A stretch of 46,081 nt of DNA, taken from assembly GCA_026692735.1 (NCBI GenBank), contig JAPLOD010000051.1, positions 1 through 46,081 of the forward strand. The letters are read 5' to 3'. Below, piece by piece: positions 2,003 to 39,094 of the stretch. Below the pieces are notes generated by a model. That model was not told the origin of the DNA. It worked only from the letters and a program-made list of their open reading frames with translations, and searched no databases. Source of the DNA: Planctomycetota bacterium. Its GTDB lineage: Bacteria > Planctomycetota > SZUA-567 > H5-PLA8. Within the stretch, counting starts at the first letter, position 1. Each line of letters begins with the position of its first letter. Position numbers and translations under genes: made by a program.

Positions 2003-2032
2003 CCCCCGCGTGCACAGGCAGACGGTCGCGTG

Positions 2033-2108
2033 AACCACGAAGAACACGAAGACAGGACAAGAAATCACACAACTTCGGTGTATCCTGTTCTTCGTGGCCT
2101 TCGTGGTT
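2033..2108. repeat. Palindromic 9-mer family (CCACGAAGA-type), copy A
   Basis: aaccacgaagaacacgaag ... ttcttcgtggccttcgtggtt inverted arms; close copy at 23327. Confidence 0.9.
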
Positions 2109-3360: not shown

Positions 3361-3432
3361 CGTTGCTCCGGTTTCCTTTGTCTCAGGCTGGCCAAGCTCC
3401 AGTGTGGGTCGAGCGACTCGGCAGTGCAAGTG

Positions 3433-3512
3433 AACCACGAAGAGCACGAAGGACCGGACGTGGCGAGAGGGGTGTGTGGATGTCTTCTTCCATTCTTCGT
3501 GTTCTTCGTGGT
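3433..3512. repeat. Palindromic 9-mer family, copy B
   Basis: aaccacgaagagcacgaag ... ttcttcgtgttcttcgtggt. Confidence 0.88.
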
Positions 3513-3536
3513 GCGCGTTCCGCGTCACAGGCCAAC

Positions 3537-5322: not shown

Positions 5323-5480
5323 CCTGTTCTCTCGTTCGGGAGAGCAGCGCCCGGTGTCCTTCGAGGAAGGGGGTGCGCAGTGGGAAGTCCGGACGACAGG
5401 GACGAACGGCCCCGGCCGCGCCCTTCCTGGCCGATTCCCGTGGGCGTCGTAGCCGTGGCCCTGGTAGCCCTCTGCGCCAT

Positions 5481-5512
5481 CGGCTTCGCCCGTAGGGCGA
5501 ACGAGGGTACGC
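5481..5512. repeat. Hairpin repeat in frame in the heparinase-like N-terminus
   Basis: ggcttcgcccgtagggcgaacgagggtacgcg encodes GFARRANEGTR. Confidence 0.45.
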
Positions 5513-5610
5513 GCAAGCCGGAAGGACCCACCGAGCCACCGCCCCAAGAGACCGCGAACGACAAGCGCTCCCCGGACAAGACGGCGGAGCCGCCCCGCGC
5601 TACGGAAGGG

Positions 5611-5640
5611 AAGGATCGGGCCGAGCTGGCAAAGGCCCGG
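5611..5640 (+). repeat. DRAELA(Q/K)AR coding repeat, copy 1
   Basis: aaggatcgggccgagctggcaaaggcccgg; copies at 5869 and 6307. Confidence 0.85.
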
Positions 5641-5868
5641 GTGGCGCAGATGCTCGCCCAGAAGCCCGTCCACCCCCACCTTGTGCTATCCAAGGACGAT
5701 CTGCCCGGCATTCGAGAACGCGTCAAGGCGGGTCTGCCCAAGGAGGCGTGGGAGAGGATCAGGAAAGAGACCGAGGCGGATCTGGGTGACGACCTGGAAG
5801 CGGTGGTTGGGCAGGCCAAGGAGAAGAAGACCGTACTAGGGAGGTTCCTGGCGGAGCTCAAAGCGCGC

Positions 5869-5898
5869 AAGGATCGGGCCGAGCTGGCACAGGCCCGC
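5869..5898 (+). repeat. DRAELAQAR coding repeat, copy 2
   Basis: aaggatcgggccgagctggcacaggcccgc. Confidence 0.85.
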
Positions 5899-6306
5899 TT
5901 GGCCAAGAAGATTCCCCCTCCGCTGAACAAAGGGTGCGGCGGCGAGGCCATGACGGCGCTGTACCAGACTGCCTTCGCGTGGCTGGTGAGCGGGGAGGAG
6001 CAGTATGCGGGGAACTTCCGCCGGATCGCTAAGGCCATGCATGAGGCGTTTCCCCAGGGCATCGCGACGGACGATTGTCCCATTCAGTTGGCGCTGGCGT
6101 ATGACTTGGGGTACGAACTCCTGACGGACGAGCAGCGGCAGGCCTTCCGCACCGGTTTTCTCCCGGCCAAGCCCGACGAGCTGAAGAAGGGCGCGGAATG
6201 GGATCGGGACTTCAACGGCGCTGGCGTCTACGGCAACCTGGCCCATCCCGGCCATTTCTGGGTCCTGCTGCAACTGCTGGCCGTGGTGGGGGAGCCGGGC
6301 TTTCCG

Positions 6307-6331
6307 CAGGATCGGGCCGAGCTGGCGCAGG
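6307..6331 (+). repeat. DRAELAQ coding repeat, copy 3
   Basis: caggatcgggccgagctggcgcagg. Confidence 0.8.
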
Positions 6332-8747
6332 ACGCGGCCGCCGCGGCCATCCGTTCCGCGCAGGAGTTTCTCGACGTCTTCTTCGGTGCGGACGGCGATT
6401 ACCCGGAGCACCTCAACTACCTCCACTACGGTGTGCAGTGCGATCTCGGCCCGCTCGCGCTCTGCGCGCTGCAGAGGAAGGGGATCAACGTCCTCGGCAA
6501 GGGATCGTCCTACGAGCGGTTCCTCACGTGGGTGCCCTACGAGCTTATGCCGGGGACGAACGTCGGCCTCGGCATGGGAGACGCCGGTCTCGCCCCCACG
6601 ACGGACCCGGATCTGTACAAGCTTCTTCTTTGGGCCAACCCGGAGAACCCCTACGCGAACTGGCTGGCCGACCGGATCGGCGGGGGCGTGGGCATCCCGG
6701 TGGGCGCGATCCTGTGGTATCGGAAGCCGCAGGAGGTTGACATCGCGCCCTTGATGTCGCCGGTCAAGCACGGCCGGTACATGGGCACGGTGTACTTCCG
6801 GGCCGGTTGGGGGCTGGGGGAACCGGCGCTGACCTTTGACGTGCGCTCCTTCGTTGGGATCCACGAGCAAGGCGATATCGGCAATTTCACACTGCATGCC
6901 TAGGGCGAGTGGTTCGCGGCCGATTCGGGATATGGAAGCTGGGACGCGACGCACCTGGGCAACCGCAGCGGCCGCGCGCACAACCTGGTGCTGATTGACG
7001 GCCGCGGCCAGGACGTGCAGATGTGGAGATGCAATTACCTGAAGCTCGGCCGCCCTTTGTGCGGGGACATCCAGTACGTGCTGGACGACCCCTTCGCCGC
7101 CGCGACGACGGCGGACCTCCGGGACGCCTACAGCCTGGGGTTCCACGGCTACCAGGATTTTCTCCATGACCAGGTGCTGGCGCTGGATCCCGTAGGCGTG
7201 GCCCGGCGATCCCTGGTCTGGGTGCGTCCGGATCCTGCGGCGGGTGTCCCGGCGTACTACGTCGTGAGCGATGACATCGAGAAGGACGACAAGGAGCATG
7301 ACTACGACTGGCTCCTGCAACTGGCCCCGGACAACATCGCGGAACTGCAGGCCAATTCGTTCACTGTGTCCAAGAATCCCGCAACGCCCGAGACGTTTCT
7401 CGAAGGGCCGGCCGAGCGGGACAAGAACGGCACCTTCGTCGGCAATGCCCGAGTCGCCGTCGAGACGCCCAAAGACGGACGCTACTGGCTGTATGTCCTG
7501 GCGGGCTGTTCCGACCGCACGGGCATGGGGTTCCGCTACTACAGCGCCGCGGTTGACGGCCGTTCGACCGGCTATGCCGCCGTGGGATGGTCTGAATCCG
7601 TCTGGGACTGGCACGGGCTGAACAACCAGGCGGCGGACGGCATGGAGCTCAAGGCGGGAAAGCACGAGATCGCGATCAACGAGGGCGGCCACGGCCCGCC
7701 GGGGGCCGCTCTGCGCGTGGGGGCGGTCGCGCTCTCTTCCGTCCGCGACGTCGCGCCGTCCTTCCTGGGCGTCCGTGGTTACGCGCGGAGAGAGGATAAG
7801 CCGGAGGACGCGACGCCCCTGCCCAACCCCTACGTCCCGCCCGCGGTGCCGGAGGGCGTCGTCTGCGTGCCCGTGACGAAGGACAACACCGCTCTCAGCG
7901 ACGGGTGGACCTGGAAGACGGAGAAGCGGGCACAGATGGACGTTCATTTCATCTGCGCCGAGCCGCTGCAGACGATGCGGCTCGAGCAGGACGTCCTCCG
8001 CGTGAGGTCCGGCCACGGCTTCTGGATCGTGCACCCGCGCGTCCACGCCCATAGCGTGTGGAAAGACATCGAGGCATTCCGGAGCCTCCACGCGCCCACT
8101 CAGATCAGGGGCCGCAATCCGCATTTCACCGCGCTCTTGTACCCGCGTCGGGCCGACATGGAGCGGCCGACGATCGAGCTGCTGAAAGAGGATCCGCCGA
8201 TCAACCTGGATGGCGAAGTGATGCCCGTCCCGGCCGTGAAGGTGACGTGGCAGAACGCCGTGGATTACATCGGCGCCTACCAGGCGCGAAGTTCGCGCCC
8301 GCTGGTTACGCAGGATCTCTCCATCGTCCGGCTGCCGCGAGCGGACGAGAACCTGGCGAAGGTCAAGTACCTGCTGGTCTGTGGCAACCGCCTCACGTTC
8401 CGGCCGAAGAACGCGCGCAAGGAGGACCCGCCGAAGGAATTGCTCAAGGTCGAGGACCCGCGCAACATCACCTCTGTGACCGTCGCCTGCAGCGGCTCCG
8501 TCCTGCACATCGCCGCCTATCCCCGGCCGACCTCGTTCTGGAAGCTCTGCGTCCCCGTGAACCTGAAGGCGTACGGCCCGGACGTGAAGGAGGTCTATGT
8601 GAACGGGACCAAGACCGCTTTCAAGCGCGAGGGCGATGAGGTCTCCGTCACGGTCACACCGGAGCGGCACGAATCCGTCAAGGAGAGGATCGAAAAGCGC
8701 CGGGAACGCTACTATTCCCGGATGTCTCCATAGAGCGCGATCGCCGG

Positions 8748-8772
8748 GTGCCACGGCATCCTTGCCGTGCGC
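8748..8772. terminator. Hairpin between two + strand genes (repeat-like)
   Basis: gtgccacggcatccttgccgtg, flanked by agagcgcg/cgcgctc. Confidence 0.45.
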
Positions 8773-8819
8773 GCTCCATACCCCCAAAGGGACGCATATC
8801 CGGCAGAGAGGAGCGGGAC

Positions 8820-9839
8820 ATGGATGCGGGAAGGATCGTCGTCCGAGGATTCGCGGCGGGCGTGGCGGGCATCCTCTTGGCGGCCGGATGTGCGGCGGGC
8901 GTGGAGGCGACACCCGACGTCGTCCAGGAGCCGGAAAGCGGCAAGTCCCCCGACCCGGCGGAAGTGGCCAGCCTCCTTGGGCCGGACGCGGCCAGAGACA
9001 TCGCCTACCCGTGGGTCCGCCGCGGCTATGAGGCCGCGTGCGATCTGACAGCCCTCTCCCCAGCCAACGTGGAGATCGCCGCCAAGCCCTTCACCGCGGT
9101 AACCCACTGGACCCATGTCCACAAGCGCCCCGGCATTGGCGCCCGCTGCGTCTCCATCAGCGCCAAGAGCGTGCGCCCGAATTTCATCATCATGCTGTAC
9201 CCGCACCGCGACGAGATCCTTCCGCAACCGAAAAAGGCGCCGGTACCGGCGTGCCGCCCATCGGCCGTCCCGGGGTTCGAGCAGGAGGTGAAGTGGCCGG
9301 ACTGCGTGGACTTCATCGGGCTGGCGCAGGCGAAGACATCGGCGCTGAAGCCGTTCGAGTCCTACAGCGAGCCGGCCGCCAAAGCGGAGACCGGCACGGC
9401 CAAAGCGGAGACCGGCACCGCCGGCGACAAGCCCGTGCTGTTCCTGTCGCACTTCGCCCGGGACCTGGAGTTTAAGGGCCGCAAGCTCGTGACGGTGGAG
9501 GGTGGGAACCCCGGGGGAGCTTTCACCGTCCTGATGTCCGGCGACACGGTCAACCTGAGCGCGTTGGTGCATCCGGACATGGAGTACCAGGTCCGCGCGC
9601 CGGCGCGGCTGACGATCTGGGCGCCGGAGGCGAAGCGCGTGCTGCTGGAAGGCCGGCCGGTTGAGTTCGCGCGGCGGGGCGAGTCGGTGGTAGTGACGGT
9701 GACGACGCGGAAAGTCAGGTATCGCGTGGACGGGATCGCCGAACGGATCGAGAGAAAGGCCGCGTATCAACTGGGCGGGACCTGGAGCTTCCTGGGGGTG
9801 CCGGAGGAGCGCCAGGGGCCTGCGGCGCCGGGGAGATGA
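8820..9839 (+). CDS. Putative lipoprotein resembling the C-terminal domain of the preceding heparinase-like protein
   Basis: Lipobox-like GILLAAGCAAG; FIIMLYPHRDE...VKWPDCVDFIGLAQAK resembles FTALLYPRRAD...VTWQNAVDYIGAYQAR. Confidence 0.65.
   Translation: MDAGRIVVRGFAAGVAGILLAAGCAAGVEATPDVVQEPESGKSPDPAEVASLLGPDAARDIAYPWVRRGYEAACDLTALSPANVEIAAKPFTAVTHWTHVHKRPGIGARCVSISAKSVRPNFIIMLYPHRDEILPQPKKAPVPACRPSAVPGFEQEVKWPDCVDFIGLAQAKTSALKPFESYSEPAAKAETGTAKAETGTAGDKPVLFLSHFARDLEFKGRKLVTVEGGNPGGAFTVLMSGDTVNLSALVHPDMEYQVRAPARLTIWAPEAKRVLLEGRPVEFARRGESVVVTVTTRKVRYRVDGIAERIERKAAYQLGGTWSFLGVPEERQGPAAPGR
9378..9425 (+). repeat. Tandem 21-bp coding repeat (AKAETGT)x2
   Basis: gccaaagcggagaccggcacg / gccaaagcggagaccggcacc. 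Confidence 0.9.
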
Positions 9840-9860
9840 CGTGGAAGGTTCAATCTTCTA

Positions 9861-9975
9861 TAGTTCGTAGTTTGTGGTTCGTGGTTCTTGGTTCTTGCGT
9901 CGGCGGCGTTGAAAACTGGGCGGGGCGGCTGCAAACGCGGGAAACTACGAACCACGAACGCCGAACCAAGAACTA
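9861..9975. repeat. Inverted heptamer arrays
   Basis: tagttcgtagtttgtggttcgtggttcttggttctt ... aactacgaaccacgaacgccgaaccaagaacta. Confidence 0.85.
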
Positions 9976-10009
9976 TCTGGCGCGCGGATGACTGGCCTGG
10001 AGGGCCCAC

Positions 10010-11236
10010 ATGAGGAAGGTAATCGCAGCACTCGCACTGGCCACGTGGGTGGCTTCCGCCGCTTTTGCCGGCCAGACGTTCTATGCGGCAACGAATGGCG
10101 ACGATGGCGCGCCGGGGTCGCAGGAGAAGCCGTGGAAGACTCTCTCGGCCGCGGCGGAGACACTGAAGGCCGGCGACACGCTCGTCGTGGCGCCGGGCAC
10201 CTATGGCCCGGCGACGCTGACCAGGGGCGGCTCCGCGGGGGCGCCCGTCACGATTCGCGCAGCAGAAAAGCTCAAGGCCATTGTTGACGGCAAAGGCGGC
10301 ACCGCCAAAGTGGAGACCGGCACCGCCGGCTTTGCGTTCAAAGGGCCGGAGTGCCGTCATGTGGTGCTCGAGGGCTTCGAGATCGTGCGCTCCTCGTGGG
10401 GCGTGCTGGTGGACGGCGGGGCGAGCTTCATCGAGGTCACAGACTGCGACATCCACGGCTGCCGCATGGGAGTCAAGGTGGCTGCGGGCACTGACTGCGT
10501 TTTTCGCCGCCTCAAGCTCCACGACAACAAGTACGGCATGCACCTCGGCGACAAAGACAAGAACCGCCCGCATCGCATGCTCGTCGAGGACTGCGAGGCG
10601 CGGAACAATCACAACAAAACGCAATCGGCCGGCGACCCCATCAGCAAGGACAATTGCGACGGCTTCTGCGTCGAGTGCGGTGACGCACAGAACATCGTCT
10701 TCCGGCGCTGCTTCGCCTCAGGCAGCACCGATGCCGCGTACGACCTCAAACCCGACGACGTGGTGTTGGAGAACTGCATCGCGGGCGGCGACTGCGCGGA
10801 GGGGTTCAAGCTGTGGCGCGGGGCGAGACTCGCCAACTGCCTCTCGTATGGCAACTCAAGGTGGGCCGTGCAGACGTCGGGTGGCAGCAATAAGCCGGTG
10901 GAGATGATCAACTGCACCCTCGTTGTGGGCAAGCGCTCTGCCGTAGAGGTCCGCGGCCAGGTGCGGATGGTGAACTGCATCGTCGTGGGCGCGGTTCAAG
11001 GGGCTGTGGAAGAAGACTACAGCCTGCTATCCGAGGGGGCTGAGTCCGCCAGGAAAGGGCAGCACAGCCTTACTGGCGACCCGAAGTTCAAGGACCCCGC
11101 CAAGGGCGATTTCCATCTTCACGACGGCTCGCCCGCCGTTGACTCAGGGACCTCCGCAGGCGCCCCGCAGACCGACCTCGATGGCTCGCCCCGCCCCAAA
11201 GGAAAAGGTCCGGACATGGGCGCCTATGAGCGCTGA
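10010..11236 (+). CDS. Secreted right-handed parallel beta-helix protein
   Basis: Signal peptide MRKVIAALALATWVASAAFA; YAATNGDDGAPGSQEKPWKTLSAA; CxIxG-type coils; C-terminal SPAVDSGTSAGAPQTDLDGSPRPKGKGPDMGAYE. Confidence 0.88.
   Translation: MRKVIAALALATWVASAAFAGQTFYAATNGDDGAPGSQEKPWKTLSAAAETLKAGDTLVVAPGTYGPATLTRGGSAGAPVTIRAAEKLKAIVDGKGGTAKVETGTAGFAFKGPECRHVVLEGFEIVRSSWGVLVDGGASFIEVTDCDIHGCRMGVKVAAGTDCVFRRLKLHDNKYGMHLGDKDKNRPHRMLVEDCEARNNHNKTQSAGDPISKDNCDGFCVECGDAQNIVFRRCFASGSTDAAYDLKPDDVVLENCIAGGDCAEGFKLWRGARLANCLSYGNSRWAVQTSGGSNKPVEMINCTLVVGKRSAVEVRGQVRMVNCIVVGAVQGAVEEDYSLLSEGAESARKGQHSLTGDPKFKDPAKGDFHLHDGSPAVDSGTSAGAPQTDLDGSPRPKGKGPDMGAYER
10304..10330 (+). repeat. AKVETGTAG copy of the 21-bp coding repeat
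   Basis: gccaaagtggagaccggcaccgccggc. Confidence 0.85.
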
Positions 11237-11296
11237 GGCGTTATGCGCTTTCTCCCGCTTGCTTGCCAGCTAGGATGGAACACAAAATGAAGAACC

Positions 11297-11337
11297 CAAC
11301 ATCAACAATCCACAATCCAAAATCCAAAATCCCCAAT
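11297..11337. repeat. Heptamer array (CAATCCA-type)
   Basis: caacaatccacaatccaaaatccaaaatccccaat. Confidence 0.85.
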
Positions 11338-11346
11338 GGGACGCTC

Positions 11347-11414
11347 ACCACGAAGAACACAAATAACAATTCGCACAACCGCTGCCGTACAATGTTCTTC
11401 GTGCTCTTCGTGGT
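11347..11414. repeat. Palindromic 9-mer family, copy C, overlapping the signal peptide of the downstream gene
   Basis: accacgaagaacac ... ttcttcgtgctcttcgtggt. Confidence 0.85.
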
Positions 11415-14400
11415 CCATTTTGCACTTTGCATTCCGCTCAGCGGCATGCTCCGCGCCGGTGAGCCGGCAGTGCCGGCCTCCGCTGTGCGGGTGGAAGCGG
11501 CGGAGAACAAGGTGACCGTCTCTCGCGGCCCGCTCACACTGGTCTTCGATCCGTCCGGAAAGGGCTTCGTCACGTCAGCAAAGCTGGGCGATGTCGAGGT
11601 CTGCGGCGCGCCCGAGGCCGGCAGTGCCGGCATCCCCCTTTGCGGACTGTTCGCGTCGCTGGCTGTTCATGGCGAAGGGGCCGGCCCGCTGGAACCGTTA
11701 CGAGGCAAGGAGACTGTCGGCCAGACGTTGGCGACTCGCATTACAGGCAGCGTGGTGGATAGACCGCCGGGCGCGCGCGTCGAGATCGCCGGGACGGTTG
11801 CCTTCGAAGGCATCGGCGTTGCCCCGTTCACCGTCCGCATTGTGGTTCCAGAGAGCGGCCCCGCGATCGTGGCTTCAGCCGAGATGGAGCTGCCCGAGCG
11901 CGCGAAGAGCGCGTGCCTCACCGCATTCGGTCTTGCGCTCCCGCTCCGGCTCAATCTCCACCCGGACTCCGGGATGCAATCCAAGCGGGACAGTAAGACG
12001 GCTGCCGCCGCGATATTGCCGCGTGCCGGAACGACGATCCCCGAGATTCGCTGGCTGGTCTGTCAGCAGGACCAGACGAGCGTGTGGGGCCCCATGCTCT
12101 GGTCGCTGGCGGGGATTCGCCAGGCGACGCCCACCTCCTGTCAGGTCTGGGAGGCATGGAGCACGCAGAACCCGCCCTTCATTCTCCAACATCACACCGT
12201 CCACCCCGGCTGGATGGCCGTGGCGGACGGCCGCGTTGCTGTTGCGGCGGGGATGCCGGTCGTGCCGGTTTCCGCTTTGGTTATCGAGACAGTCGCACCC
12301 AAGGAAATCTATGTGGACAGCCGCGCCAAAGTCTTGCGCGTCTGTTTCCAGTCTCCGTACTGCCGTCCGCTGGACCTGTCCTCAGCCCCGGCGAAGCTCT
12401 CCGCGGGCCCCGCCTATCTCTTCGTCGAAGCCGCTCAGGGAAACACACGGAACGCGGATGACTACCGCGCCCCCCGCAAACGGCCGGCGCTTGCAGCCAC
12501 CGGCGAAGCGCTCGCCAAACTGCCGCCGACGCAGTGCAACTTCGGCACCATGAAGTCCCTGCCACCGGAGGTGAAAAAGGACCCGCCGCTGGCTCCCGCC
12601 GATCCGGAGTTCGCGTCCCACGAGCCGGGTTCCGCGACCGAGATCGGGATCTGGGTGGATGAGCCGTGTGGCGTCGGCCTCGAGTCATTCCCTGTTACCC
12701 GGGGCATCCCGCTCAAGCGCGGTGTTCTCAAGGACGAGAAGCCGGCAGTGCCGGTTTCCGCTAAAGCCGCGCTCTTGGATGCGGCGGGAAAGCCGGTGCC
12801 CTGTGTTTCCAGGGCGGTTGCCTTCTGGCCGGACCGCAGCATCAAGTGGCTCCTGCTGGACTTTCAGACGACCTTGAAGGCCGGCGAGGGCGCCAAGCTG
12901 AAGCTTGTGGTAGGTGACAACGCGGCGCCCGGCCCCGTTGCGAATCCCCTCAAAGTCTCGGAAACCCCCGCGAACGTCTCCGTTGACACCGGAAAGCTCA
13001 AGGCGACCTTCGCCAACCAGGGCGGAAAGCTTAGTCTGACGATTGGCCTCGACCTCAACGGCGACGGCAAGGTGACGGAAGACGAGACCATCATCAAGCC
13101 GGGGCCCGAGGTCTTCGGCTGCACGTTCAGCCACATTGCCGATTCTGAGCATTATCCTTCGAGCACCTGGCTGGACCCGGGCGAGCCCGACCCGGGCGTC
13201 CCGGAGGTGACGGAGCTGAAGGTCGAGGAGCAATCGCCCCTCCGCGCAGTGGTGCTCGTGCGCGCGAATCTCAAGCATCGGCTGCTCGCCTCGACCATTG
13301 AGCAGAAGCATCGGCCCCAAGTGGGTACGCCGGTGACGTTACGTTTTCACCTCTACGCGAACTCCGCGATGGTCAGGCTCCAGCACACCTTCATGTTCGC
13401 CGGCGACGTGAGATTCGATTTCCTCCGCGAGCTCGGCGTCCGGCTGCCGCTTGCGGCGTCAGGCGCTCAGAAGGTTCGCACCTCGCTGAACGGCGTGGCC
13501 TTGGAGCGGGCGCGCGACGGCGAGAGCGGCGTGCTGCAGGAAAACGCGGACTCAGCCGTCGCCTGGCCGGCAACGGGGTGGGGTGGGGCGCAGACGAATC
13601 CACGCGGGCACGTCGCCGATGGCTGGCTGGATGTCTCAGGCGAACGCTGGGGCGTCACGGTCGGGGCAGCGCACATGCGGGAGCGGTTCCCTCAGGAAAT
13701 CCATGTGGACAAGGACGGCATCTGGACGCATTTCTACTCGCCACGCTCACCGCCGATGGACGTGCGGCGCTATGCCTTCAAGTACGGCGACGGCGAATCC
13801 ACATCCACCGGTTTTGGCTCCGCCTTTGGCGCGCTCCGGACCCACGAAGCGTACTGGTTCTTCCACCCTGGCGGCGAGCAGGCGGCGAGAGGCGCACTTC
13901 ACGTCCAGGAAATGCTCCACCCTCCGCTCGCCCGCGCGCGTCCGCGCTACGTTGCCGACACGCTCGCTCTGGGCCATGTTGCGGAGCATGGTGCCGCTAC
14001 CAACGATCAGCATTACGACAACGTCCTCTACCATCTTCCGCGCATGCACCGCCACAACCGCGACTTCTGGCGCTGGTTCGGTTTCTGGGACTTCGGCGAC
14101 GAGGTGCAGGTGTACAACGCCGGCCGCCAGCGCTGGGACTTGGACGACGGCCGCTACGGCTGGTACAACAACGAACCGGTCCGCGACTACAACTACCACC
14201 TTGCGTTCCTGATGACGGGGAATCGCCGCATCTGGGAGGCTGCGGAGCCGATGTCCTACCATGTCTATGAGGTGGACGTGCGGCACGCCAATCCCCAGCC
14301 CTTCATGAGCGCCGCCGGCAGCTTGAGCAAGCAGGTATACGACCATTCGACCACCGGCGGCATTGACCTCTGCGGCCGCCGCCACAACTGCCAGCATTGG

Positions 14401-15168
14401 TCCGACGGCTACTTCGGTCCCCGCGTCGGCTCGCCGCCCGGCTTTCGCCTCTGTTACTACCAGAACGGCGACCCTGTGATGCGCGAGTACCTTGAGCGCA
14501 TCCTGGCCGCCGCCATGAAGACACGCCGCAGTCAGTACATGAGCGCGGACGGGGACGAGGCGGTCCTGTGGGCCATGCTGATGGGCTACGAGATGACCCT
14601 CGACCAGAAGTACCTCGACCGCATCAACGGTTACGTCAACTGCGAAGTGGAATTCGCCAAGACGCACAACGGCATCCCTGCCGCCAAGGCCAACTGGGAC
14701 TGGGCCACGAACACACCCGGCGCGCCGCCCGAAGAGCCCAGCGATGGCTTGTGGATCTGGTCGTTCGGCGGCCATCTGGCCTTCATCGAGATCGCTGATC
14801 TCTTCGGCGACCCGGCTCTGAACGCAATGCTCCAGAACTGGCTGCTCACGCTGGAGGGCTTCGGCCCCGACAAGAAGCGGCGCGAAGAATGGTCCAACCA
14901 CATGGCTGCCTGCCCGTTGCTGGCTCACTACTACCGCACCACGGGGGACAAACGGGCGCTGGAGTGGTTCCAGAAGCGCGCCAAGGGCTTCCACTCCGGC
15001 ATCCCCAAGGATGCGCCCGCAACCGACCTGGCGACGCAGGTCATGGAGGACAGCCTTCCCGCCTACACTCCGAACGACGGCTACGGCTGGGTCTACACGA
15101 CGACCACCTTCTGGTACGTCGGTATCCCGGCGTGGCAGGGCGCACTCCGGCAGCAGGCGGGGAAATGA
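11392..15168 (+). CDS. Large secreted PcRGLX/YetA-like (PL26, exo-rhamnogalacturonan lyase-like) protein
   Basis: FPVTRGIPLKRGVL...AVAFWPDRSIKWLLLDF RIFT-barrel-type N-region; (a/a)n-type C-region with WSDGYFGPRVGSPPGFRLCYY, HMAACPLLAHYY. ATG at 11392 gives a signal peptide; track start is 11263. Confidence 0.68.
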   Translation: MFFVLFVVHFALCIPLSGMLRAGEPAVPASAVRVEAAENKVTVSRGPLTLVFDPSGKGFVTSAKLGDVEVCGAPEAGSAGIPLCGLFASLAVHGEGAGPLEPLRGKETVGQTLATRITGSVVDRPPGARVEIAGTVAFEGIGVAPFTVRIVVPESGPAIVASAEMELPERAKSACLTAFGLALPLRLNLHPDSGMQSKRDSKTAAAAILPRAGTTIPEIRWLVCQQDQTSVWGPMLWSLAGIRQATPTSCQVWEAWSTQNPPFILQHHTVHPGWMAVADGRVAVAAGMPVVPVSALVIETVAPKEIYVDSRAKVLRVCFQSPYCRPLDLSSAPAKLSAGPAYLFVEAAQGNTRNADDYRAPRKRPALAATGEALAKLPPTQCNFGTMKSLPPEVKKDPPLAPADPEFASHEPGSATEIGIWVDEPCGVGLESFPVTRGIPLKRGVLKDEKPAVPVSAKAALLDAAGKPVPCVSRAVAFWPDRSIKWLLLDFQTTLKAGEGAKLKLVVGDNAAPGPVANPLKVSETPANVSVDTGKLKATFANQGGKLSLTIGLDLNGDGKVTEDETIIKPGPEVFGCTFSHIADSEHYPSSTWLDPGEPDPGVPEVTELKVEEQSPLRAVVLVRANLKHRLLASTIEQKHRPQVGTPVTLRFHLYANSAMVRLQHTFMFAGDVRFDFLRELGVRLPLAASGAQKVRTSLNGVALERARDGESGVLQENADSAVAWPATGWGGAQTNPRGHVADGWLDVSGERWGVTVGAAHMRERFPQEIHVDKDGIWTHFYSPRSPPMDVRRYAFKYGDGESTSTGFGSAFGALRTHEAYWFFHPGGEQAARGALHVQEMLHPPLARARPRYVADTLALGHVAEHGAATNDQHYDNVLYHLPRMHRHNRDFWRWFGFWDFGDEVQVYNAGRQRWDLDDGRYGWYNNEPVRDYNYHLAFLMTGNRRIWEAAEPMSYHVYEVDVRHANPQPFMSAAGSLSKQVYDHSTTGGIDLCGRRHNCQHWSDGYFGPRVGSPPGFRLCYYQNGDPVMREYLERILAAAMKTRRSQYMSADGDEAVLWAMLMGYEMTLDQKYLDRINGYVNCEVEFAKTHNGIPAAKANWDWATNTPGAPPEEPSDGLWIWSFGGHLAFIEIADLFGDPALNAMLQNWLLTLEGFGPDKKRREEWSNHMAACPLLAHYYRTTGDKRALEWFQKRAKGFHSGIPKDAPATDLATQVMEDSLPAYTPNDGYGWVYTTTTFWYVGIPAWQGALRQQAGK
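12255..12280 (-). repeat. Reverse-orientation copy of the 21-bp coding repeat (VVPVSAL)
   Basis: gccggtcgtgccggtttccgctttgg. Confidence 0.78.
12741..12768 (-). repeat. Reverse-orientation copy of the 21-bp coding repeat (AVPVSAKA)
   Basis: gccggcagtgccggtttccgctaaagcc. Confidence 0.82.
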
Positions 15169-15212: not shown

Positions 15213-18200
15213 ATGAACACAGGTACTATGGCGTTGAGGAGAGGCCTTCGTAAGACAATTTGCCAAATTGTCCTACAGATCGGGGTGAGTTGTCTGGCCG
15301 CGCTCGCGGCCCATGCCGAAGAGTATTTCGTGTCTCCGAAAGGGGCGGATACGAATCCCGGCACGCTGGAGCGGCCCTTCGCGACGCTGCAGCGGGCTCA
15401 ACAGGCGGCGCGGCAGAAATCGGGGGACACGATCCCAATTCGGTCATCCGCGGGTGTCACTGAGACGGACCGAATTGGGAATCGTGTCCCCCGATTTCCC
15501 GTCACGGTGTTCCTGCGGGAAGGGACGCACTACCTGCCTGAGACGTTGGTGCTCACCGCCGAGGATTCGGGGACCAAGGTGGCTCCGGTCGTGTACCAGG
15601 CTTACCAGAAGGAACAGGCCGTCATCAGCGGCGGCATGAAGCTGGAGAACCTGAAATGGGAGCCGTACCAGAACGGCATTATGCTGGCGTTGGTGCCGGC
15701 CGGTACGGCATTCGACCAGTTGTTCGTCAACGGCGAACGCCAGCACATGGCGCGCTACCCCAACTTCAACCCGACCGTGCGGCACTTCAACGGTTACGCG
15801 GCCGATGCCATCAGCCCCCAGCGCGCGGCGCGCTGGAAAGATCCCGCCGGCGGTTTCATCCACGCCATGCATTCGGCCGAATGGGGCGGCATGCACTACG
15901 TCATCACCGGCAAGGGGCCGGACAACAAGATCGCCTACCAGGGCGGCTGGCAGAACAACCGCCCGTCCGGCATGCACGGGCAGTTCCGCATGGTGGAGAA
16001 CATCTTCGAGGAACTCGACGCTCCAGGCGAATGGTTCCTCGACGGCAAGACCGCCACGCTCTACTTCTACCCGCCCGAAGGCGTGAACCTCGCCACGGCG
16101 GCCATCGAAGTAGTCCGCCTGCGCCACCTCTTCGAGTTCCGCGGCGCCGAGCAGGCCCCGGTGCGGTTCGTCACGCTCAAGGGGCTTACGTTTCGACATG
16201 CCGCGCGCACGTTCATGGACAACAAGGAACCCCTGGTGCGCAGCGACTGGACGACCTATCGCGGCGGCGCCCTCTTCTACACGGGCACCGAAGACTGCGT
16301 GCTGGAGGACTGCTTCATTGACCAGGTCGGCGGCAACGCGGTCTTCGTGAACAACTATAACCGCCGCCTGACCGTGCGCGGCTGCCACATCGCCAAGGCC
16401 GGCGGCAACGGCGTGGCTTTCATCGGCGATCGCGACGCGGCCCGCGTGCCTCGCGACTGGAAGGATAACTCCCAGAAGTTCGCCACGCTGGACCGCACGC
16501 CCGGCCCGAAGACCAACAACTATCCCGCCGGCTGCCTCGTCGAGGACTGCCTGATCTACCTCTCCGGCCGCGTCGAGAAGCAGACCGCGCCCGTGCAGAT
16601 CGAGTTGTCCCAGAGCATCACCGTTCGTCACTGCTCCCTGTACGACGTGCCGCGTGCGGGCATCAACATTGGCGACGGCTGCTGGGGCGGCCACGTCATC
16701 GAGTTCTGCGACATCTTCGACACGGTCAAGGAAACCGGCGACCACGGCTCGTTCAACTCGTGGGGCCGCGACCGCTTCTGGGGCCTCAACGGCCTGGATC
16801 TCAACAACGATAAGGTCTGGGAAGCCGAGAAGGACGTCCCGCTGCTGGATGCCGTCAAGACCGTCATCCTGCGCAACAACCGCTGGCGCTGCGACCACGG
16901 CTGGGACATTGACCTCGACGACGGCTCCACGAACTACGAGCTGCGCAACAACCTCTGCCTCAACGGCGGCATCAAGAACCGCGAAGGGTTCTACCGCGTG
17001 GTCGAGAACAACATCATGGTCAACAACGGCTTCCACCCGCACGTGTGGTACAAGCACAGCCAGGATGCCGTCCGGCGCAACATCATGTGGACCGACCACT
17101 ACCTGCCTGCCGGCGGCATGCCGTCCACGCCGTGGGGCAAAGAGATGGACTACAACCTCGTCCACCGCGCGGGCGTCACGGAGCCCAAGCCCGCGACGAA
17201 ACTCGCCGAACAGTCGAAGCGTGACGCCAACTCGATCGTCGCCGACGCGCTGTTCATGGATGCGGCCAACGGCGACTTCCGCGTGAAGGACGGCTCGCCG
17301 GCACTCTCGCTCGGCTTCGTCAACTTCCCCATGGACCAGTTCGGCGTGCAGAAGCCGGAGCTGAAGGCCATCGCCCGGGCGCCGCAGATGCCTGCGGCGC
17401 GCGGGGACATGTTCGCTGTTGAACGTGTCCCCGGACGCGCCGCACGCTGCGTCTGGCAGGCCAAGGTCCGTGACATCTCGGGTCTGGGCGACCGTTCCGC
17501 GTACGGATTGCCCGAGGAGTCCGGCGTGCTGATGCTGCATGTGCCCGCGGAAAGCCCCGCCGCCAGGGCCGGCCTGCAGAAAGACGACGTGGTCCTCGCC
17601 TGCAACGGCAAGCCGGTGCGGACGGTGAGCAACCTGCTGGAAATCCAGGAGGAGGCCGCGGGCAAGAAGCTCACGGTCTCAGTCGTCCGCAAGCAGCAGG
17701 CGTTGTCCCTTGACGTAGCGGACTACGCGTTTGTGGTCACCGAGTATCAGGCCACGCCCGACTTCAAGACGATTCCGCTCGCCCCCGCCCCCGCCACGGC
17801 GGTCCTGCCCGCGAAGATTCTGGCCGGCGCGCCGGGAACCATGAACGAGCCCGTCGCCGTGCTTACTGACGGCAAGCTCGGCAAGAACTACGGGCCCGTA
17901 TTCGGCAACGGCTGTGCCGATGGCATGTACAAGCTCGATCTCGGCGCGGCCAAGAGCGTCGCGCAGGTGAACACGTTCTCGTACAACCAGAACGGCAACC
18001 GCGGCCGGCAGCGCTTCGTGCTGTACGGCAGCAACGCCGCGGCTGATCCAGGCTGGAACGTCGAGGACCCCCGCGTCTTCACGCCGCTTGCCGACGTTGA
18101 CACAAGGAAGCCGCCCACGGCTGACTTCGTTGCCACCAGCATCCGCCAGAGCGACGGCAAGCCGCTGGGTTCGTACCGCTGGCTCATCTGGGCCATCGCC

Positions 18201-18391: not shown

Positions 18392-18600
18392 CCGGATGAA
18401 ATTGCGTCTTCGGACATAGGGTTGTGTGGAATTGCGATCAGTAGCGATAAGTAGCGATCAACGGCTATCCGCCACAATCCGCCGCGATATGCATGCTCAC
18501 CGGATATACGACACGCGAATTCGCGTTTTCGGACATAGGGTTGCGTAGAATTGCGAACAGTAGCGATCAGTAGCGAACAGTAGCGAACACTAGCGATCCG
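18392..18600. repeat. Duplicated intergenic element with 10-mer (CAGTAGCGAA-type) units
   Basis: ttcggacatagggttgtgtggaattgcgatcagtagcgat at 18409 and ttcggacatagggttgcgtagaattgcgaacagtagcgat at 18528. Confidence 0.88.
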
Positions 18601-20695: not shown

Positions 20696-20757
20696 CCATT
20701 CGCGTGGCCTCCCGGGCCAGCCATGAGCATGTTGGGGCCCGCGCTCGCCCCGTGCGC

Positions 20758-20785
20758 CAATCCCCAATCCGCAATCCGCAATCGC
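20758..20785. repeat. Heptamer array
   Basis: caatccccaatccgcaatccgcaatcgc. Confidence 0.85.
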
Positions 20786-20794
20786 TACAGCTCG

Positions 20795-21887: not shown

Positions 21888-21936
21888 CAATCCCCAATCC
21901 GCAATCCCCAATCGTCAATGCGCAATCCCCAATCGC
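21888..21936. repeat. Heptamer array abutting the Gfo/Idh/MocA stop codon
   Basis: caatccccaatccgcaatccccaatcgtcaatgcgcaatccccaatcgc. Confidence 0.88.
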
Positions 21937-23273
21937 TACAGGCTGTAGCCCTGCCGGTACGGCGGGTTGATCAGCGCGTTGGCTTTCTCGTTATTGGTGA
22001 ACTTGAGGTTCTCCGCATCCCACATCAGCCGCCCCGGCGTGCGGAGGGCGATGTTGCCCAGCAAGACCACTTCGGCCAGGTGCGCGGAGTGCTTCGCAAA
22101 GTCCGCCCCGGCAGGCTTGCCGCCGCGGCACGCGGCGAAGAACTCCTGCCAGTGGCCGGGCGAACGCTCGAGCGTGCGCGGCGGCCTGCCGATCTCCTTC
22201 TGTTTCGATTCCGGGATGATGCGGTGGCCGTATATCTTGGCCTTGTCGCCCACGATGTACGTCCAGTCGTTCTCGCCGAACTCGCGGTCCGGTTCCAGCT
22301 CCTCCGGCCGCTGCGGCCGCAGCCCGCCATCCCACCAGTAGAGCATCAGCGCCTCGCGGTCGCCCTCCTTCGGGAAGTACCAGCGCGTGATGGATGCCAG
22401 CGGCGCGGATTCGTTGGCAATCTCCTTGCCCAGGGAATGGTTCGACGAGCAGGCTTCGACCCACGCCGGGTGGCCGAGCTTGAGAGCCTTGAAGACTTTG
22501 GAGAACTCGTGGCAGCCGATGTCGCCGAGGCAGCCGGTGCCGAAATCCCACCAGCCGCGCCACGCGAACGGGTGGTAGCACGGATGATAGGGCCGTTCAG
22601 GCGACGGGCCCAGCCACAGGTCCCAGTTGAGCTTGGGCGGGCAGGGCGGCTTGTCCTTGGGGCGCGGGATGCCGCGCGGCGAGATGCCGCCGGGGCGATT
22701 CGAGCCGCCGTGGATTTCGCGCACCGTGCCGATCATGCCGGACTGGATGTACTCGCAAACCAGACGTGCCTCTTCACCCGCTTGGCCGAAGTTGCCCATC
22801 TGCGTGGCCACCTTGGCTTCCGCCGCCGCCTTGCCGATCATGCGCGCCTCGTAGACCGAATGAGTCAGCGGCTTCTGGCAGTGGACGTGCTTGCCCATCT
22901 TGAGCGCCATCATGGTCGCGACGGCGTGGCAGTGGTCGGGCGTGGCGATGAAGACCACGTCAATGTCCTTCTGTTCTTCGAGCATCTTGCGGAAGTCGGC
23001 GAACTGCTTCGCATTCGGGAACTTCTTGCCCATGCGTTCAAGCGCGCCCTGGTCCACGTCGCAGAGCGCGACGATATTTTCGCTGCCGCCGCAGCTTTGG
23101 GTGTCGCCGGAGCCCATGCCGCCAATGCCGATCCCGGCGATGTTCAGTTTCTCGCTCGGCGCCTTCTGGCCCGGCCCGCCCAGCACGTGCCGCGGCACAA
23201 TCATCACGGACGCCGCGGCCGTGACGCTCGCGGCGATCATCTCACGGCGGTTCATCGTGTTTGTCGTTTTCAT
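21936..23273 (-). CDS. Tat-signal Gfo/Idh/MocA family oxidoreductase
   Basis: MNRREMIAASVTAAASVMIVPRHVLGG; GIGIGGMGSGD; HVHCQKPLTHSVYEARM. Confidence 0.9.
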   Translation of the reverse strand: MKTTNTMNRREMIAASVTAAASVMIVPRHVLGGPGQKAPSEKLNIAGIGIGGMGSGDTQSCGGSENIVALCDVDQGALERMGKKFPNAKQFADFRKMLEEQKDIDVVFIATPDHCHAVATMMALKMGKHVHCQKPLTHSVYEARMIGKAAAEAKVATQMGNFGQAGEEARLVCEYIQSGMIGTVREIHGGSNRPGGISPRGIPRPKDKPPCPPKLNWDLWLGPSPERPYHPCYHPFAWRGWWDFGTGCLGDIGCHEFSKVFKALKLGHPAWVEACSSNHSLGKEIANESAPLASITRWYFPKEGDREALMLYWWDGGLRPQRPEELEPDREFGENDWTYIVGDKAKIYGHRIIPESKQKEIGRPPRTLERSPGHWQEFFAACRGGKPAGADFAKHSAHLAEVVLLGNIALRTPGRLMWDAENLKFTNNEKANALINPPYRQGYSL

Positions 23274-23321: not shown

Positions 23322-23405
23322 CGCGTGAACCACGAAGAACACGAAGGCAGGACAAGGAGTCACACAACGAAAGGTGTATCCTGTTCTTCGTGGCCTTCGT
23401 GGTTA
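23322..23405. repeat. Palindromic 9-mer family, copy D
   Basis: gcgtgaaccacgaagaacacgaaggcaggacaaggagtcacacaacgaaaggtgtatcctgttcttcgtggccttcgtggtta, close to copy A. Confidence 0.92.
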
Positions 23406-23468: not shown

Positions 23469-23570
23469 ATTGGCTCTTAGCTATTGGCTCTTGGCTATTG
23501 GCTCTTGGCTATTGGCCGCTGACGCGCCGTGGCGCCAATAGCCAGTAGCCCATAGCCAGTAGCCGCCAGG
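23469..23570. repeat. Inverted heptamer arrays (TTGGCTC/TTGGCTA vs CCAATAG/CCAGTAG)
   Basis: ttggctcttagctattggctcttggctattggctcttggctattgg ... ccaatagccagtagcccatagccagtagcc. Confidence 0.9.
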
Positions 23571-28693: not shown

Positions 28694-28702
28694 CGACCGG
28701 TC

Positions 28703-28759
28703 AACCACGAAGCACACGAAGCACAGAACAGTCTCCTGTTCCTTCGTGTTCTTCGTGGT
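28703..28759. repeat. Palindromic 9-mer family, copy E, between convergent genes
   Basis: aaccacgaagcacacgaag ... ccttcgtgttcttcgtggt. Confidence 0.88.
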
Positions 28760-28765
28760 ACGCGC

Positions 28766-34446: not shown

Positions 34447-36870
34447 CTACTTCGCCACCTCGGCGCGCTTGCGTAGCATCTCGCGCTGGCGCTTCAGCTC
34501 CTCGTCCTTGCGCGCCTTGCGCGTGGCGAGCATGTCCTCTTCGCTCACGAGCTTCGTCAGCGCCTCGATTGTGTCGCCGAGGTCCTTGTGGGCCTTGAGG
34601 AGGACCGCGGGCTCCCACGTCCAACTGATGAAATCCATGCCGGTGACCTCATCGGGTATCCGCAGGACGGCCTTGGCCTTGTCGAGAAGGTCCTTGGCCT
34701 TGTCGGCGAGCGCGGCGTCCGTCTTGCGCTTCGCTTCGAGCGTCTCCACGTAGTCGCGCAGGACGTAGTGGCTCTCCCAGTCTTCGATGCCGTCGCGGAT
34801 GTTCTCAAGACGCACGGAACTGAACGGACCGTCAGGCCCCGGGTAAAAAAGGTTCCCGTCGCCGTTGTAGACCATGCTGCTGCCGAATGCGCCCGGCGAG
34901 TGCGGTGTCTCCGGCCACTTCTTGCCGTTCTTGGGCTGGTTGAACTTCCAGATGTTGTAGCAGTAGTACTCGAAACCCGTCGGGCCGAACTTCCAGGTGA
35001 GCCAGAACAGAACGCGCGACGCGACCAGCGGGTCCTCCATCTGGACGTTTGGGCAGGGGAGCATCGGCCCCGCGGCCACGTACCAGAAGAACTTCTCGCC
35101 TTTCTCGCGGCAGCGCTGGATCATGGCCGGCGTGTCCTCAGCCGAAATGGCATAGGTGTGGCCTTTGCCCGCCTTGTAGTCAATCTGGGGATCGAAGATG
35201 TCTATGATGCCTTCCAGCTCCGGCCGCGGGTAGCTGCCGCCGATCATGATCAGCAGCTCCGGGCACGTCTTGCGGATGCTGTCCGACCGCCGCCGCATCT
35301 CGTCCCACTTGTTGGTTTCGTCGCCGATGTAGACGAGCGCCTTGTCAATCAGCCCCAGTTCCTTGACCTTGTCGTACCGTTCCTTGAGCTTGGCCGGATC
35401 GCCCTTGTAGTTGCCGGAAAGGTAGATCGTCTGCGCGCCGCGCTTGACGCAATACGGGATGTCCTCGAGTGACGGCGAGAGCGTGTCAGCATACTGCTCG
35501 GTCGGCGTGAAACGGTGGTCCAGGAGAAAGTCCACGTACTTGCGTTTCAGCTCAGGCGTGACCGTTCCGTAGTATTTCCGGATCTCGTCCCAGCAGGTCT
35601 GCCCCATTGTCTCGAAGTTCCACTGCTCCGGGATTCTGTAGTTCCAGACACGGACGGTCAGCGTGAGGTCGCGGGGCGGCGCGTTCTTGGCTTTGACATT
35701 GATCGTTCCCGCGTACGAGCCGCCGGGCGTTTCCGGCTTCGTGCGTACAGTGAACCAGAAGGGCGTGGACATCTGGAGCGGGCAGTCCATGGGCTTGTCC
35801 CACACCAGCGGGTCCGGCAGGACGAAGTTCTTCCCGTGGAAGTACCAGTCCTTGATCTTCGGGTTGGGGACCATCTGGAACATCTCTTCGCCGTGGCATG
35901 CGATGTCTTCCTTGGGGATCTTCGCGCCGCTCTTCGCGTCCACGAGGTCCGTCCATTCGAAGCAGACTTCCTGCAGCGGTTCGACAGTCGGATAGACCAC
36001 GACCTGGAAGCCTTCGAACTCGTTCCGCGCCATGCAGAGCGCGTAGCTTTCCTCGAACGGGCCCCGGAAGCGGAAGCGTGTGCTCTGGTCGCAGATCCGC
36101 TCGAGCGTGTGGGTCATGCCAACGAGGTACGGCTTGTCGAGCGGCGCGAAGTCGAGCACCAGCCGGGGCCGCTTGTCCTTGTCCGCATGCTGCGCCGACG
36201 GGATGTCAATCTCGGCGGTGTTCGGGAAGCGCGTGTCACCGAGAGCCATGCCCTGCAGAGCCAAACCGTGATTGGCTGACGCGTCGGCGAGCCATTTCCT
36301 CGCGGCCGAAGTCACGTTGAAGTCCATCCATTTCCCGCCATCGGGCACGCCGAGGAACTTGTACTTGTGCGGAAAGTACTGGCCGTTGAACTCCCAGAGT
36401 TCGTAGGAGTCCAGCACGCCGCGAGGGCGTCCGCGGCCGGAGTCGCTCGTCGTGTCGAGCGTTCCGCCCGGCTCTTTCCACGGTTTGCCGGCCGACGCGT
36501 TCGTCCAATCCGCGTCCGCACCCCAGGGCTCCAGGACTTCGCGACAGGCGGTCTCCGCGATCATCCGCAGCTTCTGCGCGGCAGGCACGAAGACCTCCAG
36601 GCGCGCCTGCGCCAGTTTCTTGGTCTTCAGCGCCTCGGGGATCTCGAACCGGATGAGGATGCTGTTGCTTGTCCCGCGCAGCGCCAAGGCCCCGGCGTCC
36701 GTCTGCTTCGGCTTCTGCGCTTTCCCGCCCCACAACGTCACGGCGCGGCAACCGGCGTACCCCTGGTTGCCTTCCTGCAGAACGACCGTCTCCGCCCATG
36801 CTGCCGACACGCAGACGCTCGCCATCGCCAGCAGTAGCGCGCCAAATGGTTTCACCACGAAGAACACGAA
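34447..36870 (-). CDS. Secreted DUF4091-type glycoside hydrolase-like protein with DNRLRE-like N-terminal domain
   Basis: GALLLAMASVCVSAAWA signal region; SILIRFEIPEALKTKKLAQARLEVFV; C-terminal NLFYPGPDGPFSSVRLENIRDGIEDWESHYVL; 5' boundary approximate (track start 37098). Confidence 0.75.
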   Translation of the reverse strand, partial: FVFFVVKPFGALLLAMASVCVSAAWAETVVLQEGNQGYAGCRAVTLWGGKAQKPKQTDAGALALRGTSNSILIRFEIPEALKTKKLAQARLEVFVPAAQKLRMIAETACREVLEPWGADADWTNASAGKPWKEPGGTLDTTSDSGRGRPRGVLDSYELWEFNGQYFPHKYKFLGVPDGGKWMDFNVTSAARKWLADASANHGLALQGMALGDTRFPNTAEIDIPSAQHADKDKRPRLVLDFAPLDKPYLVGMTHTLERICDQSTRFRFRGPFEESYALCMARNEFEGFQVVVYPTVEPLQEVCFEWTDLVDAKSGAKIPKEDIACHGEEMFQMVPNPKIKDWYFHGKNFVLPDPLVWDKPMDCPLQMSTPFWFTVRTKPETPGGSYAGTINVKAKNAPPRDLTLTVRVWNYRIPEQWNFETMGQTCWDEIRKYYGTVTPELKRKYVDFLLDHRFTPTEQYADTLSPSLEDIPYCVKRGAQTIYLSGNYKGDPAKLKERYDKVKELGLIDKALVYIGDETNKWDEMRRRSDSIRKTCPELLIMIGGSYPRPELEGIIDIFDPQIDYKAGKGHTYAISAEDTPAMIQRCREKGEKFFWYVAAGPMLPCPNVQMEDPLVASRVLFWLTWKFGPTGFEYYCYNIWKFNQPKNGKKWPETPHSPGAFGSSMVYNGDGNLFYPGPDGPFSSVRLENIRDGIEDWESHYVLRDYVETLEAKRKTDAALADKAKDLLDKAKAVLRIPDEVTGMDFISWTWEPAVLLKAHKDLGDTIEALTKLVSEEDMLATRKARKDEELKRQREMLRKRAEVAK

Positions 36871-36927
36871 GACAGGACATGAATTCAAGAAACGTTGGTC
36901 ATCCTTTTCTTCGTGGCCTTCGTGGTT
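36853..36927. repeat. Palindromic 9-mer family, copy F, overlapping the start/signal region of the DUF4091 gene
   Basis: caccacgaagaacacgaagacaggacatg ... ttcttcgtggccttcgtggtt. Confidence 0.9.
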
Positions 36928-37160
36928 CGCCTTGCCGGTCGCGGTGTAACGCTTGCGCTCCCTTGACATGCGTGGCGGCATCGCAGGGCAGTAGCGCATA
37001 ACGCCCTCCTCGTGAGAGACCCTTCTTACGTACACCGGGGTACGGAGCTCATCCGGGAAGCCCATGAGACCCATAGCGACAAGCTGGCCGTAGCGCACAG
37101 TCTTGGCGAGAATTCGTGCGCCGTCTGCGCTTGTGCGTGACCGGCTTCAGTGGCGGTCTG

Positions 37161-39060: not shown

Positions 39061-39094
39061 CAATCGCAAATCGAAAATCGCAAATCGAAAATCC
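39061..39094. repeat. Heptamer array (AAATCGA/AAATCGC)
   Basis: caatcgcaaatcgaaaatcgcaaatcgaaaatcc. Confidence 0.88.

Follow-up and report, generated by a model that had tools for sequence, protein, structure and literature searches.

Rickettsia palindromic elements (RPE) are lineage-specific repeats that lie in frame in unrelated protein genes and are tolerated there (PMC10969869, PMC2229807). They are palindromes of 105–150 bp with terminal inverted repeats (PMC10969869, PMC2229807). REP elements of the GTAG/CGTC super-families are 20–40 bp long and consist of a small hairpin and an unpaired conserved end, and some of them lie in ORFs (PMC3733652). REPs bear a GTAG or CGTC tag at one end and are mostly intergenic; those found in genes form dimers or groups, encoding 20–30 amino acids, in more than half of the cases (PMC3733652). 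The small dispersed repeats (SDR) of cyanobacteria are about 20 bp long, dispersed, sometimes tandem, and possibly mobile (PMC3116915, PMC2884548).

The window, by which we mean the whole stretch of DNA analysed (46,081 nt, forward strand of contig JAPLOD010000051.1, assembly GCA_026692735.1), belongs to a Planctomycetota bacterium (H5-PLA8) whose genome assembly comprises 9.13 Mb in 1014 contigs and is 86% complete. A sequence-only reading of it had reported a 21-bp coding repeat in three consecutive secreted-protein genes. Every copy listed there is present, and the units, here called unit A, were redefined by alignment. The sites were right; inclusion of a GCC next to the unit, on one side or the other, had shifted the coordinates by 3 bp. 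The first host is a lipoprotein-like ORF without a Pfam match (8748–9839, + strand). It carries a tandem pair on the + strand at 9381–9401 (AAAGCGGAGACCGGCACGGCC, reading K-A-E-T-G-T-A) and 9402–9422, the latter followed by GGC. The second is a secreted right-handed beta-helix protein (Beta_helix, DUF1565; 10010–11236, +), in which the unit at 10307–10327 (+) reads KVETGTA. The third is a PcRGLX-like exo-rhamnogalacturonan-lyase-type protein (11263–15168, +), whose units all lie on the − strand: 11466–11486 near the N-terminus (PAVPASA on the coding strand), 12258–12278 (PVVPVSA), and 12744–12764 in the RIFT-barrel domain. A partial copy had also been placed at 11617. The place exists (11620–11640, −), but as unit A it is diverged or doubtful, with three mismatches, only the palindromic core GCCGGCACTGCCGGC, and no 5' half motif. 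The start of the same protein touches another repeat. A dispersed CCACGAAGAACACGAAG repeat occurs in direct and inverted pairs in the window (2030–2052, 3430–3517, 11345–11419, 23325–23347, 28700–28764, and 36850–36931), and its sequence at about 11392–11420 encodes MFFVLFVV, with which the signal peptide of the PcRGLX-like protein has its hydrophobic start.

Unit A is a discrete 21-bp repeat with the consensus NNTSCGGARRCCGGCACNGCC. Its edges are sharp: in an alignment of all copies from the fetched contigs of the genome, the information content is at background outside GCC-[NNTSCGGARRCCGGCACNGCC]-GGY. The three genes of the window do carry copies, but that account was incomplete, since about 40 insertion places were classified genome-wide (the palindromic place at 11608/11620 being counted twice). 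The exact copy number is uncertain by about 10 because a search with a shorter pattern found 46 sites and its loose control found 20. The genome search that the earlier reading had proposed was carried out with GCGGARACCGGCACNGCCGGC, allowing at most one mismatch. It gave 20 sites against one for a reversed-pattern control, and no site in six genomes of the same family. Among the other relatives searched, a few had single, chance-level matches. An exact GTDB-wide scan returned scattered single matches in unrelated bacteria only, and a scan of viral contigs returned two single matches only. Unit A is specific to this genome and was multiplied in one lineage. Contamination of the bin was considered and rejected, as the tetranucleotide profiles of unit A-bearing and other contigs correlate equally; the G+C content of the bearing contigs is slightly above that of the first 20 contigs.

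Comparison with homologs was informative for about ten unrelated proteins, which carry exact insertions of 7 or 14 amino acids. In the PcRGLX-like protein, the unit at 12744–12764 corresponds to an exact 7-residue gap in nearly all homologs, both paralogs from the same genome and proteins from other genera. Exact 7-residue gaps were likewise found for the inserts in an NPCBM protein encoded on C999, beta-helix proteins, and others. In a GH36-like protein encoded on C161 the insert is 14 amino acids long, made of two A units, and again matches an exact gap. Against homologs of the same family at 49–63% identity, further inserts appear as clean 7-residue gaps, and one more host shows a 14-residue gap. 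An empty site was also found at the nucleotide level. The filled site on contig C8, TTCGATGGCC[CAGGCGGAGACCGGCACGGCC]GGCAGTGG, faces TTCGACGGCC GGCAGTGG in a paralog on contig C138. The two are 92% identical over 758 bp and their alignment has a single gap, the 21 bp itself, so that GGCC^GGCAG is the empty form of GGCC[21 bp]GGCAG. Unit A is a precise 21-bp insertion. The sequence-only reading had argued for frame-neutral insertion of a DNA repeat, and both the exact protein gaps and the clean 21-bp empty site bear this out; the encoded peptide is not conserved in orthologs, and the homologs lack it. For the window copies at 9381–9422, 10307, 11466, and 12258, no homolog was close enough to show a gap, and they are called putative insertions from their identity with the proven ones. 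It is extremely improbable that the copies are chance or ordinary low-complexity repeats such as a GC-rich genome contains, or short linkers that arose by convergence. Some listed matches do look like chance (one in a Gfo/Idh protein on C687, another on C300) and were set aside. However, the search counts against the control and the same-family genomes speak against such an origin, and the empty site refutes it. An AlphaFold model of the N-terminal region of the PcRGLX-like protein, built on a 25-sequence alignment and with a mean pLDDT of 73, predicts that the insert at 12744, about residues 52–60, falls in a loop between strands 33–43 and 62–65, where the confidence dips. This agrees with the loop placement for which a model check had been suggested. 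In a search of solved structures for the GH36-like host, the matches did not span the insert.

The joined flanks of the copies read GCC|GGC in 13 cases, GCC|GGT in 6, and GCG|GGC in 4, with rarer variants. The preferred target is GCC^GGY, and some pre-insertion sites deviate from it. Independent support comes from reading frames. GCCGGC occurs in genes in frames 0, 2, and 1 at 194:97:37, and the inserts follow at 24:14:2 (chi-square p = 0.41). The GCC at the right end would be part of the unit rather than a target duplication, as indicated by an ACC|GGC site at which the insert is missing from homologs. GCCGGC is restored at the right junction, and therefore a second insertion there gives a head-to-tail array with a period of 21. 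The tandem arrays at 9381/9402, at 6916–6978 of contig C928, and on C161 probably arose by such re-insertion at the regenerated 3' GCCGGC. In the array at C928 (L061) 6916–6978, three tandem units directly follow the start codon (MKAHTHAETGTARRETGTAYRATGTAG), ahead of an apparent signal peptide.

Nearly all copies are intragenic and lie within protein genes. Genome-wide both orientations are found and five of the six reading frames are used: 22 are of the AETGTA type, 10 PAVPVS, 4 RKPAPPA, 2 AGGAG, and 2 GDRHGR, and the sixth frame has none. The claim that the same DNA gives two different peptides by orientation was correct in that orientation changes the peptide, but two are too few. The peptide itself could be the selected entity, with AETGTAG being a functional tag or linker spread by gene conversion among secreted carbohydrate-active proteins. 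More than half of the copies are AETGTA-like and in one frame, and many hosts resemble large secreted proteins acting on sugars. Nevertheless, we judge this explanation very unlikely. Unrelated peptides (PAVPVSA, GDRHGR, RKPAPPA, AGGAGLH) arise from five frames and both strands, the target-site frames match the expectation from DNA, the homologs do not have the peptide, and one copy (C928 6834) even precedes the likely start codon. Within a frame, equal orientations are expected because the target is nearly palindromic. One frame shows a strongly skewed ratio of 22:2 and another one of 4:10 (p = 1e-4 by Fisher's test, a value that is indicative only, since clustered copies are counted as independent). 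From this bias we infer that selection acts on the peptide that unit A encodes. Under insertion at the DNA level, unit A would be tolerated in surface loops because it is seven codons long and has no stop in any frame. Peptide selection would then remove unfavourable orientations and leave mainly AETGTA and PAVPVS inserts.

A second 21-bp family, unit B, is unrelated to unit A (GATCGGGCCGAGCTGGCACAG, DRAELAQ). Three B units had been missed upstream in the window, where the description of repeats was thus incomplete. They lie on the + strand at 5614–5634 (GATCGGGCCGAGCTGGCAAAG, DRAELAK), 5872–5892, and 6310–6330 (both DRAELAQ), in one ORF at 5380–6903 (+). Unit B is also specific to this genome. 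Most of its copies lie between genes, at varying positions within REP-like CCCTCTCCC...GGGTGAGGG repeats; in several genes it is read in frame and gives DRAELAQ or a variant of this peptide. One copy was verified as an exact insertion of 7 amino acids (C676). In both families an inverted repeat is completed by the 3' flank, RCCGGC-ACN-GCC|GGY for A and CGGGCC...G|GCCCG for B. Unit B behaves like unit A.

Other repeats were also seen. An 81-bp palindromic element with arms AAATCGGGGGACACGATYCC lies in frame in a beta-helix/PDZ protein at 15417–15497 of the window (KSGDTIP...NRVPRF), and arm pairs with a span of 78 or 81 bp, each divisible by 3, were seen at about ten genomic places, an RPE-like insertion. 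Varied heptamer arrays (CAATCCC, GCCAATA, TCCGGTA, and GAACCCT types) are present at 11296–11337, 20757–20790, 21888–21941, 23469–23564, and 39062–39093 and on many other contigs. Arrays of period 7 are commoner than those of periods 6 and 8 and resemble cyanobacterial STRR repeats. A 63-bp direct repeat with TAGCGATCAGTAGCGA lies at 18398–18579 with a start-to-start spacing of 119, and the perfect palindrome GTGGCACTGCGAGCTAGCTCGCAGTGCCAC is common to two contigs (L059 6248, L066 7615).

Copies of unit A are clustered, with six in 3.4 kb of the window and eight on a 12-kb contig (C566). Copies that share a contig resemble each other more than expected (p ~0.001 by permutation, tandem neighbours removed), and all clear window copies have the base A before SCGG, where T stands on most other contigs. 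Both observations support local copying, and hence a spread that is at least partly local. The main rival to transposition makes use of this and needs no transposase: unit A would be copied by replication template switching or micro-homology-mediated gene conversion. A nascent strand ending in GCC would jump to the GCC flank of a nearby unit, copy 21 nt to the next GCC, and return to GGC. Local relatedness and clustering fit such a route, as do the GCC and GGY micro-homology at both junctions and the common period of the tandem arrays. It also agrees with the search for a partner enzyme: none of the six Y1 transposase matches in the genome (86% complete) is flanked by A or B. On the other hand, the boundaries of unit A are unchanged where the 5' match is poor (ACC, CCA, GCG), donor flanks never travel along with it, and the second family, also of 21 bp but with different termini, suggests a length-setting process. 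We regard template switching as a serious contender, although on the whole a somewhat doubtful one.

The reading that we prefer, and consider probable, is that unit A (NNTSCGGARRCCGGCACNGCC) is a very small non-autonomous mobile 21-bp DNA repeat that inserts, in one orientation or the other, between the CC and GG of sites like GCC^GGY. A unit in the vicinity would be copied, most likely in single-stranded form, and a REP/IS200-type (Y1 HUH) transposase acting in trans would most likely move the copy. The single-strand transposition layout of the Y1 enzymes of IS200/IS605 resembles that of unit A. Three features suggest a Y1-type route: the same triplet (GCC) usually forms the left flank and the right end, an independent target duplication is lacking, and the right flank completes a small hairpin. 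The hairpin has a stem of 5–6 bp, RCCGGC-ACN-GCCGGY, and is weak, with DNA fold z-scores of –0.9 and –2.1. Covariation was looked for in its outer pair (position 6 with 20), and none was seen. Neither A nor B borders any of the six Y1 matches, so unit A has no enzyme linked to it, and RAYT flanks were rejected as its source. To our knowledge, 21 nt is shorter than the units mobilised by known HUH enzymes. Tentatively, and with rather more reserve than for mobility itself, we propose a trans-acting site-specific system that inserts units of a fixed 21-bp length, from two or more unrelated families, into CC^GG-like or similar sites.

Unit A seems to be among the smallest DNA repeats observed to spread in protein-coding genes and would bring the size limit down to 21 bp. 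If the trans-acting system exists, its units would be the shortest transposing DNA known, and the system would act as an inbuilt source of 7-residue insertions in protein loops. With one DNA in many proteins and several frames and with an empty site at the nucleotide level, unit A is a natural experiment on the entry of new 7-residue loops. Two families of equal length and a defined target, GCC^GGY, make the movement of tiny bacterial repeats directly testable.

In comparison with known systems, RPE are the precedent for in-frame mobile inserts. Like them, unit A lies in frame in unrelated protein genes and is missing from homologs, but it is 21 bp long and has no terminal inverted repeats. 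The same lack of terminal inverted repeats, together with the lack of a target-site duplication, sets it apart from MITEs; in most copies both ends carry GCC. Head-to-tail units in some genes recall minisatellites (VNTR), whereas most copies are single and dispersed over unrelated genes in both orientations. Unit A falls within the 20–40 bp of REPs, some of which also lie in ORFs. Compared with REPs, unit A is mostly intragenic, encodes 7 amino acids, and has no Y1 (RAYT) gene flanked by the repeat among the six matches examined. GTAG, CGTC, and their complements are absent from the six window units and from the consensus. Unit A shares with SDR a length of about 20 bp, dispersal, occasional tandem arrangement, and apparent mobility. 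The size of cyanobacterial SDR is reportedly 21–27 bp, a range ascribed to Elhai et al. in 2008. Unit A differs from SDR as described in that nearly all of its copies are intragenic and in its GCC^GGY target, and both A and B are exactly 21 bp. Unit A fits no known kind exactly, being a single unit of exactly 21 bp without a GTAG/CGTC tag. It is placed nearest to intragenic REPs and cyanobacterial small dispersed repeats, with RPE also among the closest kinds.
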